Below are positions 37,602 through 49,402 of a stretch of DNA of 49,721 bases, piece by piece. The translations under genes and the position numbers were made by a program. The stretch covers positions 1-49,721 of the forward strand of contig JAFAOW010000046.1 in the NCBI GenBank assembly GCA_019247455.1. Direction: 5' to 3'. This DNA is from Acidobacteriota bacterium. GTDB lineage: Bacteria > Acidobacteriota > Blastocatellia > Pyrinomonadales > Pyrinomonadaceae. The notes below the pieces were generated by a model. That model did not search any database, was not told the origin of the DNA, and saw only the letters and a program-made list of their open reading frames with translations. How positions within the stretch are numbered: the stretch's first letter is position 1; each line of letters starts with the position of its first letter.

Positions 37602-39011
37602 ATGTATAAGTCGACCCTAAAATGGCTAGCAGTGCTTGGCGTTGGCGTTGCGATCTCGATCGTTCCGCCGCCCGAGGGGGTGACGCGACCGGCCTGGACA
37701 CTGCTCGCTATCTTCATCGCGACGATCGTTGGCTCGATCCTCCAGCCTTTAACCGGGAGCGCGGTGGTGCTGCTTGGCGTTACGGCCACCGTAGTCTTCG
37801 GTGCGCTCAAGCCTTTTGACGCGCTGAAAGGATATGCGGACCCGGTGGTCTGGATCGTCCTATCGGCGTTTTTCGTTTCGACCGCTGTTATCAAGACAGG
37901 GTTGGGACGCAGGGTAGCGCTTCAGTTCATTCGGCTGCTCGGGCGAAATACCTACGGGCTGAGCTATGCGCTTGTCGCGACCGACTTCGTGCTCGCCTCG
38001 GTCGTTCCGTCTAACGGCGCGCGCAATGGCGGCATCATTATTCCCATAGCGGTTTCGGTCAGCGAGAGCTATGACTCGCGGCCCGAAGATGGTACCGCTA
38101 GCCGCCTCGGCGAATATTTGATGTATCTGCTCTACCAGTGCGAGGTGGTCATTGGCGCGACATTCCTCACAGGACACGCCGGGAATTTTGTCATGCAAAA
38201 GCTTGCTCGCGAAACGGCGGGCATCGAGCTGACGTACTTCAGCTGGTTTGCGGCGGCGATCATTCCCGCGCTGATCTCACTCGCGGTCATTCCTGCATTC
38301 ATTTATCGATTCTTTCCACCCGAGGTGAAGGCCACGCCCGCAGCGGCCAGCTTTGCTTCCGACGAACTCACAAAGATGGGCCCCGTCACCCGTGACGAGC
38401 GGATACTGATCGGGACGCTTGTCGGCGTAATATTCCTGTGGACGATGCAGGGAAGGCTGCACTCGATCGATCCCGCGATCATCGCGCTCGGCGGTATTGG
38501 GTTCCTGCTCCTGACAAAAGTCGTGACCTGGATGGAGCTAATGGGCGAGAAGAACGCATGGTCGACCTTCATCTGGTATGGCGGCCTGGTGAATATGGCT
38601 GCCGCGCTCGGTGACACGGGCGTTACTAAACTCTTTGCCGAATCTGTTGCGGGCTACACCACCGGAATGACTTGGATGGCAGCCCTCGCTGTCCTCCTCC
38701 TTGTTTACTTTTACGCGCACTATCTGTTTGCCTCAGTGACAGCGCACGCCCTTGCGATGTACGTGCCTTTCCTATTGGTCACGCTGACGGCAGGTGCACC
38801 GGCTGGACTAGCTGTTCTATTTCTAAGTTACTTTGCAACTCTGAGCGCGAGCCTGACGCATTTTGGAACGACGCCCGGACCTATCTACTTTGGGACCGGT
38901 TACGCGAAGCAAGGCCGCTGGTGGACGATCGGCCTCATGGCGTCCATCGTGAACCTCGCCGTCTGGTCAACCGTCGGACTCGGCTGGTGGAAGCTGCTGG
39001 GTTGGTGGTGA
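37602..39011 (+). CDS. DASS-family anion:Na+ symporter (SLC13/CitT-like)
   Basis: A 469-residue transporter with about 12 hydrophobic segments. The family signatures are the first hairpin SNGARNGGIIIPIAVSVSES (a variant of the SNT motif) and the C-terminal LSASLTHFGTTPGPIYFGTG, which together form the dicarboxylate and sodium sites. WIVLSAFFVSTAVIKTGLGRR and VNMAAALGDTGVTKLFAESV are typical of the plastid/bacterial 2-oxoglutarate-malate translocator branch (DiT1/CitT, COG0471). It probably carries di- or tricarboxylates. It begins seven bases after a palindromic element, and its stop codon is immediately followed by the left inverted repeat of the IVP cassette. Confidence 0.92.
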   Translation: MYKSTLKWLAVLGVGVAISIVPPPEGVTRPAWTLLAIFIATIVGSILQPLTGSAVVLLGVTATVVFGALKPFDALKGYADPVVWIVLSAFFVSTAVIKTGLGRRVALQFIRLLGRNTYGLSYALVATDFVLASVVPSNGARNGGIIIPIAVSVSESYDSRPEDGTASRLGEYLMYLLYQCEVVIGATFLTGHAGNFVMQKLARETAGIELTYFSWFAAAIIPALISLAVIPAFIYRFFPPEVKATPAAASFASDELTKMGPVTRDERILIGTLVGVIFLWTMQGRLHSIDPAIIALGGIGFLLLTKVVTWMELMGEKNAWSTFIWYGGLVNMAAALGDTGVTKLFAESVAGYTTGMTWMAALAVLLLVYFYAHYLFASVTAHALAMYVPFLLVTLTAGAPAGLAVLFLSYFATLSASLTHFGTTPGPIYFGTGYAKQGRWWTIGLMASIVNLAVWSTVGLGWWKLLGWW

Positions 39012-39031
39012 TAAAAACTCAAAACGTAAAA
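39012..39031 (+). repeat. left 20-bp inverted repeat of IVP cassette
   Basis: TAAAAACTCAAAACGTAAAA begins on the base after the DASS stop codon. Its exact reverse complement is at 39469-39488. It runs into the heptamer array at 39027-39054. Confidence 0.85.
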
Positions 39032-39054
39032 CCTAAAACCTAAAACCTAAAACC
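39027..39054 (+). repeat. tandem heptamer TAAAACC x4
   Basis: Four exact consecutive copies of TAAAACC (39027-39033, 39034-39040, 39041-39047, 39048-39054), ending five bases before the ATG of the four-helix-bundle gene. The unit is one base change from the complement of a TTTAGGG telomere-type repeat; resemblance only. Confidence 0.9.
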
Positions 39055-39059
39055 AAATT

Positions 39060-39431
39060 ATGTCTGACAAAACTCCCGTGTTCGATATAACCCAGCGGTC
39101 ATTCGACTTCGCTACGCGGATAGTTAAACTTTGCCGATATCTTGAAAAAAAGAGCGACGTCAGTCGGACTTTGATCAGTCAGCTACTCGACGCAGGAACC
39201 TCTGTTGGAGCTAACCTAGAAGAGGCGGAGGCCGGACAAAGTAGAAGGGATTTTGTTCACAAAAACGCCATCGCCCTTAAGGAGGCTCGCGAAACACGCT
39301 ACTGGCTACGACTCATAATCGCAACCTATGAATTTGAGGGGGCAATACTAGGTAGGTTCCATCATTTGATCGACGAAGCGGGTCAGATTTCAAAGATCGT
39401 CGCCAAAATAATGATAAACACGCAAAAATAA
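39060..39431 (+). CDS. four-helix-bundle protein (23S rRNA intervening-sequence protein family)
   Basis: A 123-residue helical protein of the S23/IVP family (TIGR02436), recognised by FDFATRIVKLCRYLEKKSDV, LISQLLDAGTSVGANLEEAE, QSRRDFVHKNAIALKEARET and YWLRLIIATYEFEG. Its relatives are encoded in intervening sequences inside 23S rRNA genes of some bacteria or, as Avd, form the pentameric partner of reverse transcriptase in diversity-generating retroelements. Neither an rRNA gene nor a reverse transcriptase is in this window. The gene is more A-rich than its neighbours and lies inside a 477-bp cassette bounded by perfect 20-bp inverted repeats. It probably forms a homopentamer that binds nucleic acid; the function of solitary members is unknown. 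Confidence 0.9.
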   Translation: MSDKTPVFDITQRSFDFATRIVKLCRYLEKKSDVSRTLISQLLDAGTSVGANLEEAEAGQSRRDFVHKNAIALKEARETRYWLRLIIATYEFEGAILGRFHHLIDEAGQISKIVAKIMINTQK

Positions 39432-39456
39432 AGGCCGTCCGGTACAAAGACGACCT
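39432..39456 (+). terminator. hairpin after IVP gene
   Basis: AGGCCGTC (39432-39439) pairs with GACGACCT (39449-39456) over seven of eight positions, directly after the TAA stop, followed by a T-rich stretch (ATTTTACATTTTACG). It is terminator-like and lies inside the cassette. Confidence 0.45.
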
Positions 39457-39468
39457 CCGAATTTTACA

Positions 39469-39488
39469 TTTTACGTTTTGAGTTTTTA
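39469..39488 (-). repeat. right 20-bp inverted repeat of IVP cassette
   Basis: TTTTACGTTTTGAGTTTTTA is the exact reverse complement of 39012-39031. Its last three bases are the stop codon of the convergent PpiD-like gene. Confidence 0.85.
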
Positions 39489-41465
39489 GTTGTCCCCTCC
39501 CGGAACGCCGGGCAGCGGCTCGTCGATCTTGTCGAGTACGTCCTTATAGACCTTGATCGAACCGTCCTTCTCCATCCGCTGCCTTACGTCAGCAAGATAA
39601 TCCGAATAAACGTCAGCGCGCCTCTTGTTGAGCATCTGTTCCAGCAGGCCGCTGCGCTGCTTGGCAAAATCCGCCATGTTGGCGTCCTCGCGCTTGGTCA
39701 CGCCCACGACGTACCAATTGTCGCCAACCTTGAGCGGCATCTTGGTAACCTCATCCTGCTTGAGCGCGTAAACGGCATCCTCGAGCGCCTCGCTCGTTCC
39801 GGCAGATGCACCCTCTCCAAGCGGGGAACCCAAGACAAAACTCTTCTGATCCTTGGCCGTCATGCCTTTCGCGGTAGCGGCGGCTGCAAGTCCGGCGGCG
39901 TTCGGCGCACCAGCCGCGATCGCTTTTGCGATCTCCTCGACCTGAGCGGCAGCCTTTTCGATCTTCACAACGTCTACGATCTGGGCCTTGACCTCATCGA
40001 ACTCCGCATCCCGCGGCTCTTTTCTGTCGGCTAGCATCGGCACGGCAAATCCGTTCTGGATCGGCGTCTTGTCGCCCACATCACCCACCGTTTCGAGCGG
40101 AGCGATGCCATCCTCGAACTGCTGCGAGATACCTATATTCGGTACGTCGTCGCCCGGCTTCACATAGCCGGTCTCCTTGATCATGTCTGCGACGCTCATA
40201 TTCGCCTGCGAGGCGAAATCGGAAGCTACTTTCTGAATGTCCTTTGACTGTTTTAAGGCGTCGTCGACCTTCTGAGCCAGCTCGGCAGCGACGGCGTAAC
40301 CCCGGCGGTTGCGAAGCGAGACTTCGATCTCCTTCTTGGCCTGCTCATAGGTCTTCGGCACGGCGTCGCCGCGACGAAGGATAAAGTAGCGTCCCTGATA
40401 GCTGATGGGCTCTGTGATCTCGCCGGGCTGCATCTTGAGCAGACGCTGATAAGGATCGTCAGGCTTGTTGAGATTTTCACGGACGGGACCTGGCAGCTTC
40501 CCGCCGGATGGCGCCGTTGCCGGATTTTCCGACATACCCTTGGCCTTGTCAGCGAATGCCTGTTCGCTCACAGCAGGTCCGCCTTTTTTGAGCTGCTGAA
40601 CGATATCCATCGCCTTCGCCTGGACCTGCGGATCCATTTCCGGTTTTGCTACGCGAAGCACTATTTCTTGGCCCAGTACCCCGAGCATTTTTTTGTCCGG
40701 AGCAAGTGCGTCGTACTCGGCTTTGATGTCCGCCTCAGGTATTTGAAGCTTTTCGCCCAGCTTGGAGGTGCTGATGAAAATGTATTTGATCTTCTTCTGC
40801 GGAACGGAGATGTAGTAGCTTGCCTTGTTCTTTTCAAAGTAGTCGCGAAGCTCTTGTTCCGTGGGCGTTATCGTCTTTGCCACGTCGGAGCTGTTCACCG
40901 AGACGTAGGAAAGGTCGAATTTCGTATTCTTCCGCTGAAAGTCGCTGAGAACCTCCTCCTCAGACACGCTTACACCTGAGGTCAGGAATGCCTCGAGCTT
41001 CTTAGAGCTGATCTCGTCACGAACGCTCTGCTCATAGGCACCGATACTGCCGAACTGTTCCTTTACGTTCTGTTCATACACGGCCTGGTCCCACGGTTTC
41101 CCCTCTTGCGAGAATTGATTCTTGATATAGGCCGATACTTCCGCATCGCTCGCTGTCAGTCCCAGTCGCTCCGCTTCGACGCGGGCGATGCGGCTGCCGA
41201 TCATTCCCTCGAGCAGCATAGACGCCGGGAAACTCATACTTTGTCCGAATTGGCTGAAGTTCTCCTTCTGCCGGACGATCTCCCCGACGGTTATCTTGTT
41301 GCCGGAAACGGACGCGACCGTTTCGTCGCTGTGCGACGGGTCCTCGCCAGCTTTCGAGCTAATGGAATTGCGATTCCACAGCACAAGGCTGACGACCATC
41401 AGGATGGCGAAAATAAGCAGAACGAAATTACGCGTCTTCTCGAGGCGGTTAAAAAACTTAAGCAT
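39486..41465 (-). CDS. PpiD/SurA-like peptidylprolyl isomerase
   Basis: A 659-residue periplasmic chaperone anchored by one N-terminal helix (FVLLIFAILMVVSLVLW, residues about 14-31). The SurA-N/PpiD-type helical domain follows (VASVSGNKITVGEIVRQKEN to about residue 200). A parvulin-type PPIC domain lies near residues 265-380, with GGKLPGPVREN, LLKMQPGEITEPISYQGRYF and ILRRGD. A second PPIC-like segment occurs near 545-610 (GMTAKDQKSFVLGSPLGEGA then DNWYVVGVTKRED). PpiD-like proteins act at the Sec translocon exit on newly exported outer-membrane proteins. A cyclophilin gene is divergently placed. Its stop codon lies inside the right repeat of the IVP cassette. Confidence 0.9.
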   Translation of the reverse strand: MLKFFNRLEKTRNFVLLIFAILMVVSLVLWNRNSISSKAGEDPSHSDETVASVSGNKITVGEIVRQKENFSQFGQSMSFPASMLLEGMIGSRIARVEAERLGLTASDAEVSAYIKNQFSQEGKPWDQAVYEQNVKEQFGSIGAYEQSVRDEISSKKLEAFLTSGVSVSEEEVLSDFQRKNTKFDLSYVSVNSSDVAKTITPTEQELRDYFEKNKASYYISVPQKKIKYIFISTSKLGEKLQIPEADIKAEYDALAPDKKMLGVLGQEIVLRVAKPEMDPQVQAKAMDIVQQLKKGGPAVSEQAFADKAKGMSENPATAPSGGKLPGPVRENLNKPDDPYQRLLKMQPGEITEPISYQGRYFILRRGDAVPKTYEQAKKEIEVSLRNRRGYAVAAELAQKVDDALKQSKDIQKVASDFASQANMSVADMIKETGYVKPGDDVPNIGISQQFEDGIAPLETVGDVGDKTPIQNGFAVPMLADRKEPRDAEFDEVKAQIVDVVKIEKAAAQVEEIAKAIAAGAPNAAGLAAAATAKGMTAKDQKSFVLGSPLGEGASAGTSEALEDAVYALKQDEVTKMPLKVGDNWYVVGVTKREDANMADFAKQRSGLLEQMLNKRRADVYSDYLADVRQRMEKDGSIKVYKDVLDKIDEPLPGVPGGDN

Positions 41466-49112: not shown

Positions 49113-49304
49113 ATGTCAGAAGAAGCAGCACAGCCGGCACACGAGACGCCGTCCAATCCTGAGGACGTTTCGTATCAGGCGGTCGAAAAAGAAGGCGTCG
49201 TGACGGCGATCTGGGAGATGCAGGGCCAAAAGCATCTGCGAACGATCGATCCCCGTTCGAATGAGGGTAAGCAGATCCTCGCCTTGTTCGAGACAGCCGG
49301 TTAA
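49113..49304 (+). CDS. small acidic hypothetical protein
   Basis: A 63-residue acidic protein without signal peptide or membrane segment. The N-terminal third is Glu/Ala/Pro-rich; the remainder (VSYQAVEKEGVVTAIWEMQG then QKHLRTIDPRSNEGKQILALF) looks like a small beta-hairpin plus helix. I do not recognise the family. The AGGAG at 49094-49098 is 14 bases before the ATG, somewhat far. Coding use is plausible and the compact gene is followed directly by a hairpin element. Confidence 0.55.
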   Translation: MSEEAAQPAHETPSNPEDVSYQAVEKEGVVTAIWEMQGQKHLRTIDPRSNEGKQILALFETAG

Positions 49305-49318
49305 CAGCAAAACCAGCC

Positions 49319-49359
49319 CACGAAAAACACGAAAAACACGAAAGACTATTCGTGTTTTT
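49319..49359 (+). repeat. tandem CACGAAAAA array plus terminator hairpin
   Basis: The period-9 unit CACGAAAAA occurs at 49319-49327 and 49328-49336, with a third, truncated copy at 49337-49343. AAAAACACGAA (49332-49342) then pairs with TTCGTGTTTTT (49349-49359), a perfect 11-bp stem with a 6-base loop, ending in a T-run. It can serve as an intrinsic terminator of the small gene, and belongs to the same A-rich repeat class as 44512-44576. Confidence 0.7.
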
Positions 49360-49402
49360 TGTTGTTTCTTCCGCCATCCCTCGATTATTGCCCACTATCC
49401 TT

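Follow-up and report, generated by a model that had tools for sequence, protein, structure and literature searches.

IVP genes between inverted tandem arrays at gene ends: candidate transposase-less mobile units in Acidobacteriota and other bacteria

Introduction

The 23S rRNA intervening sequence (IVS) of Coxiella carries an open reading frame of the IVP family within complementary ends, with heptamers next to the reading frame. According to the sections of PMC4990558 concerned with it, it is unclear what role IVSs play and how mobile they are, S23p proteins have no known function, and a Xanthomonas relative is a homopentamer. A second system with similar layout is the RAYT/REP pair, where one gene lies between two inverted, lineage-linked repeats and gene-less repeats occur in spacers (PMC2817692, in the part on these elements). 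Avd of diversity-generating retroelements is a related four-helix-bundle protein (excerpts of PMC10053308), and short tandem 7-mers have been reported from intergenic spacers, namely TAACTGA (PMC4679880) and GGGAATC (PMC4692102), some of the heptamer arrays forming inverted pairs in Xanthomonas, like the arms described below. A passage of PMC4679880 speculates that a protein binding the repeats could be the mobile element; the terms 'four helix' and 'S23' are absent from the available text of both heptamer papers. In the open-licence PMC literature that we searched, no paper was found that connects IVP genes with arrays at their flanks.

Here we report on an IVP gene enclosed by inverted arrays in a 49,721-nt stretch of Acidobacteriota DNA (contig JAFAOW010000046.1; hereafter the window), which an earlier note had read as a self-contained mobile unit targeting gene ends. 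The window cassette is one instance of a much wider pattern.

Results

The cassette in the window

The cassette lies between a DASS-type transporter gene and a convergent PpiD-like gene. The features of the region are:

37602 to 39011, forward strand: DASS-type transporter gene (Na_sulph_symp), flanking
39012 to 39057, forward strand: left arm, a degenerate array of a 7-nt unit, with 39012-39031 perfectly paired with the right arm
39060 to 39431, forward strand: IVP gene, 123 aa (PF05635 / TIGR02436; relative in the PDB, 2rld)
39433 to 39455, no strand assigned: imperfect hairpin, seen in the sequence just inside the right arm
39462 to 39488, reverse strand: right arm, an inverted array of the same 7-nt unit as the left arm, holding the stop codon of the PpiD-like gene
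39486 to 41465, reverse strand: PpiD-like gene, flanking, convergent

The perfect 20-bp inverted repeat, the four TAAAACC heptamers, the IVP gene, the hairpin and the richness in A that the earlier note had pointed out were all confirmed in the sequence and by profile matches, and the placing of the cassette against the stop codons of DASS and PpiD, as described there, was borne out by reading frame ends at 39011 and 39486. Positions 39012-39031 and 39469-39488 are perfect reverse complements over 20 nt, and these cassette ends are the single case in the window of a 20-mer perfect inverted repeat with a spacing of at most 1 kb; extended, the repeat covers 27 nt at 93% (39012-39038 and 39462-39488). 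Since the DASS gene ends at 39011 and the PpiD-like frame at 39486, the left arm begins at the base that follows the DASS stop codon, and the PpiD stop codon (39486-39488) lies within the right arm. The heptamers, which start at 39027, 39034, 39041 and 39048, continue the left arm, itself a degenerate 7-mer array, and variant 7-nt units stand in matching order on both sides of the cassette; heptamers and inverted repeat are one array, not two features. The arm score was 22.0, against a maximum of 13.0 in 300 shuffles. The reading frame at 39060-39431 matched PF05635 with 66.8 bits (cut-off 33.8) and TIGR02436 with 80.3 bits (cut-off 24), and A makes up 33% of the cassette versus 17-18% of its DASS and PpiD-like neighbours.

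A scan of the window for short tandem arrays returned the two cassette arms and one further site, and an Rfam search of the window gave no match. The further site (49319-49361), located after a TAA ending at 49304, consists of three copies of the 9-nt CACGAAAAA followed by inverted ATTCGTGTTTTTTG, a small array hairpin with no IVP gene. Hairpins were seen by eye at the DASS-PpiD junction in relatives too, and the one at 39433-39455 is possibly an old terminator of this junction.

Arms around IVP genes in the source genome, the class and other phyla

The source genome gave 13 matches to PF05635, from which we kept ten full-length IVP loci and dropped three partial matches. At eight of the ten, the inverted repeat exceeded all 300 shuffles; a ninth (L007) exceeded all 100 shuffles once the search interval was anchored on the HMM match, and the tenth (L023) has an array on its downstream side only, judged by eye. 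The units are specific to their loci, including GTGAATC, GTCATTN, TGAGAAN, AGTCCAA, the 9-mer AGTTCGTTG and others. A search of the host genome for further copies of the window's repeat revealed two single-sided partial copies of its arm with no IVP gene beside them (L002 1501-1529 and L003 1501-1528), so the repeat is not unique. By eye, the L002 copy lies upstream of a kinase-like gene near atpE and the L003 copy between two genes by gatC.

PF05635 was present in 36 of 40 genomes (the source, 24 of the genus and 15 of the class), with 1 to 16 IVP copies per genome in the genus. We assembled 99 class loci: the ten of the source genome, 29 taken one per genome, and 60 picked by hand among the matches listed, a non-random choice from better-assembled genomes. 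Arms scored at least 13 at 90 of these 99 loci, a score reached by none of 383 control genes by the same measure (window plus 396 kb of control stretches), and 90 loci, not quite identical with the former, beat all 100 shuffles. The nine below 13 were L023, L029, L043, L123, L127, L137, L152, L156 and L170; L043 has lost its whole left array relative to the near-identical L042. The median arm measured 31 nt and 4.4 units and the median cassette 478 nt, with units mostly of 7, 8 or 9 nt that differed between loci.

To look across phyla, one genome per species was scanned with one IVP subfamily and the best 80 of 590 loci were analysed. Arms scoring at least 13 and above all 60 shuffles were found at 62 of these best 80, the passing loci including Bacteroidota, Proteobacteria, Planctomycetes, Clostridia, Chloroflexi, Verrucomicrobia, Gemmatimonadetes and candidate phyla, going by their record titles; the 18 without scoring arms include archaeal, Elusimicrobia and SAR324 loci and two Nitrospira-type loci. 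LSU rRNA matches were found in the flanks (up to 1.5 kb a side) of none of the 80. On viral contigs, 24 of 30 IVP loci had arms, in a set that includes near-duplicates.

Array period and the IVP protein tree

The two arms shared their period at 83 of 89 loci, against 40.6 expected from the margins. On the IVP protein tree the period (7, 8 or 9) changed 10 times, against a minimum of 18 in 1000 shuffles; this tree had 81 tips, with up to seven near-duplicate loci and the loci of other periods left out. The unit motifs, compared by eye, also group by IVP clade. Among non-orthologous loci, arm similarity went from about 5 for pairs with less than 50% protein identity to 7.1 in the 50-60% range and 10.3 beyond 60%, and it correlated with protein identity (rho 0.20, permuted maximum 0.11). 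As this similarity is flat until about 50% identity, joint inheritance of gene and arms would explain the link as well as recognition would.

We weighed in this context whether local slippage and template switching make and turn over the arrays at junctions, the IVP genes being passengers in or beside them. Consistent with this are 11 non-hexamer arrays in the 396 kb of control sequence (near which IVP genes may lie), IVP-less inverted arrays at junctions, and the greater likeness of arms of the same locus than of orthologous arms (22.5 to 13.3, the orthologous value being lower in 63 of 80 comparisons), a comparison that is biased since arms are defined by their mutual match. The concerted pattern that these values draw is contradicted by 2 of 15 orthologous sets, and neither the tracking of the IVP protein tree by the period nor the lack of such arms at all 383 other genes fits passenger genes well, which makes this explanation quite improbable in our judgement.

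Insertion at gene ends and empty sites in relatives

For the 74 cassettes towards which the upstream gene reads, the distance from the stop codon of that gene to the start of the left arm has a median of -2 nt and is at most 20 nt in 61. With insertion at gene ends the arms can supply stop codons: in the source genome those of PpiD, PNP and the gene beyond transaldolase are supplied by an arm, and the last residues of the gene beyond transaldolase are encoded by the array. The junctions of the 99 class cassettes comprise 72 between co-directional genes (66 with the cassette in sense and 6 in antisense), 15 convergent and 7 divergent ones, and 5 with one side undetermined. The earlier note had considered that the repeat might be a bidirectional terminator shared by the two neighbours; the IVP gene would then be enclosed by chance. 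The hairpin inside the right arm, and those at the same junction in relatives, would suit a terminator, but with 66 of 99 cassettes in sense between co-directional genes and only 15 in convergent positions we reject this explanation, to which we give hardly any credence.

Co-directionality with the upstream gene was found for 83 of 97 cassettes, neighbours being taken from a longest-ORF rule that makes occasional mistakes (it placed the upstream gene of L164 on the opposite strand, although this gene, PNP, is on the same one). It is one of the observations that fit an intergenic IVS, whose arms would form an RNA stem for RNase III and free the IVP message from the host transcript, the arrays serving as stem material and not as binding sites. 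The Coxiella IVS offers a precedent: RNase III cuts its terminal stem of 28 bp, and tandem heptamers precede the ORF (PMC4990558, in the passages on the IVS). RNA folding of the window cassette predicts that its two arms pair (z -2.19, with 2 of 100 shuffles equally good), and mismatches in the class set favour wobble pairs of the sense RNA (112 to 81, p 0.031). The cross-phylum mismatches (best 80 of 590 loci) go in the opposite direction, 73 to 114 (p 0.0033), and the pooled ratio is 185 to 195 (p 0.64), which speaks against a stem in the sense RNA as a general explanation of why the arms match. A stem alone, moreover, needs no tandem units with a period that follows the protein, and we regard this account as unlikely.

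Comparison of orthologous DASS-PpiD junctions had been set beforehand as a test of the mobile unit. Both ends were adjacent in 8 of the 15 genomes searched, the other seven having no DASS end among the matches listed, and all eight comparable relatives were empty, with 41-179 nt and no IVP gene. One of these eight, G013, carries two 7-mer arrays in inverted orientation at the junction, with a hairpin between them, in place of the IVP cassette. Among 14 other genomes, the PNP-Udk junction measured at most 124 nt in 11 and held an IVP gene in two (G007 and G012); in G011 it spans 337 nt with another small reading frame, recognised by eye. The transaldolase junction measured at most 165 nt in 13 of 13 other genomes, five of them with overlapping genes. 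No target-site duplication was recognised at the junctions, which were inspected by eye only. These empty sites, together with the two partial arm copies elsewhere in the genome, support the proposed self-contained unit at gene ends.

Turnover between related genomes

In the flanks that were compared, G010 and G019 share 86-97% identity, and they differ at two junctions whose gene names are our reading of the flanks. At rpsG-fusA (flanks 96-97%), the insert of G010 is an IVP cassette with 7-mers, and that of G019 is an 89-nt inverted array whose units are longer and which has no IVP gene; G003 has a 91-nt array similar to that of G019, and G014 and G017 have inverted 7-mer arrays without IVP. 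Every one of these inserts has the TA of the stop codon before it and the next ATG after it. At clpP-clpX (95-97%) it is G019 that carries an IVP gene with 7-mers (arm score 12.0) and G010 a 174-nt 9-mer array without IVP. Another junction is occupied by a 7-nt family in L152 and by a 9-nt family in L121, L131 and L135. Remnants of the gene within arms, namely the first 60 IVP residues in L331 and a C-terminal fragment in L328, indicate that IVP-less arrays can derive from deletion.

Unrelated genes, as judged by eye, occupy some junctions instead (L323, L327, L329 and L334), which suggests that some junctions take various small inserts. The insert at L327 (G010:C12:269350-270400) is an apparent toxin-antitoxin pair by eye, at a junction where G019 has an IVP cassette. 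Some insertions are common to several species, PNP-Udk to three and HlyD-RND to six, and therefore movement is slow or sites are reused. Two places in G003, L107 6038-6252 and L108 13920-14122, each combine a 9-nt array of the GTGCAAATC type with a 7-nt array some 100-120 nt further on; the pair is possibly another repeat element.

The IVP protein and candidate enzymes in trans

The dN/dS of IVP was 0.06-0.08 in the three informative pairs of nine (two gave 0 and four no ratio), as expected for a working protein under purifying selection. The solved relatives 2rld and 2gsc, the latter being XCC0516 of Xanthomonas, have five chains each. PF05635 was the sole domain found in the window cassette ORF, and the unit encodes no transposase, no Y1 (HUH) protein and no known catalytic enzyme.

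Enzymes acting in trans were considered accordingly. PF05635 has a relative in Avd, a protein of diversity-generating retroelements (PMC10053308, in the parts dealing with Avd), and the unit could in principle be copied by a reverse transcriptase encoded elsewhere. The earlier note had suggested looking for such a gene; the search found no match to RVT_1 in the source genome, nor in 23 of the 36 IVP-bearing genomes; drafts may be incomplete and divergent enzymes may escape. RVT_1 and IVP counts showed no correlation (rho -0.13). Both results disfavour this reading, and we consider it very improbable.

Counts of Y1 transposases and IVP genes correlated across the 40 genomes (rho 0.55, p 0.0002) and across the 25 of the genus (rho 0.41, p 0.04), with relatedness ignored in both, and only 1 of the 36 IVP-bearing genomes had no Y1 match. 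Inverted flanks were found at 18 of 20 picked Y1 genes of the genus (L338-L357), which by eye are RAYT-like with REP-like palindromic ends and share with the IVP units the layout of a single gene enclosed by two inverted ends. Because these loci end in palindromes and not in arrays, we do not claim that Y1 proteins move IVP units.

Discussion

The matched arms, the lineage-linked period, the empty sites, the presence of different array families at one junction in related genomes, the IVP remnants and the purifying selection rest on comparison of sequences, by which we take them to be established; the mobility of the IVP-array units is likewise read from comparisons between species. On balance we favour the interpretation that IVP cassettes are widespread transposase-less mobile units, an IVP gene between inverted tandem arrays, which insert at gene ends and whose IVP protein reads its own arrays. 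The arms would be the ends of the moving unit. An IVP ring may bind the tandem units, with each subunit perhaps taking one, and may bring the two cassette ends together, while breaking and joining could be left to host replication or repair, or to an enzyme acting in trans. Arrays without IVP would either descend from IVP units by deletion or be mobilised together with them, in the way that REPs relate to RAYTs. The earlier proposal that array and inverted repeat are recognition sites stands in part: the 20-bp repeat is no family-wide site and the unit is specific to its locus, and recognition by IVP is no more than plausible.

A bolder version, possible if rather doubtful, is that these units form a separate, widespread class of enzyme-less mobile elements, in which a pentameric ring reads about five units per end, by analogy with the TRAP ring and its spaced triplets, ring geometry sets the period of 7, 8 or 9 nt, and 23S IVSs and many unexplained intergenic heptamer arrays are special cases and relics. 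A ring that reads the array, if true, would make the unit more than a variant of the IVS. The IVP family, so far a curiosity of rRNA genes, in any case proves to be common at gene junctions, and the units offer an origin for some intergenic heptamer repeats. IVP is also named in the legend of a CRISPR-association figure (PMC10910872), and from that legend we infer that IVP arrays are perhaps behind some false CRISPR-array calls.

Among known systems, IS elements and MITEs resemble the cassette in their terminal inverted repeats and in the empty sites of relatives, and an IS element differs in its transposase, as none is encoded in the window cassette. In the RAYT/REP system the gene codes for a Y1 transposase and the repeats are palindromic (PMC2817692, in the part cited above), whereas IVP has no known catalytic domain and the ends of its unit are tandem arrays. 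Unlike Avd, IVP has no reverse transcriptase partner found in the source genome. The window cassette, at 477 nt, is close in size to the 428-nt Coxiella 23S IVS (PMC4990558, in its account of the IVS); it lies between protein genes, outside any 23S rRNA gene, in a genome with many copies and a unit specific to each locus, and IVP is conserved here whereas the same account has S23p decaying in Coxiella. As the Coxiella IVS has complementary ends and tandem heptamers, by that account, IVSs of rRNA genes are probably units of this kind that occupy a special site.
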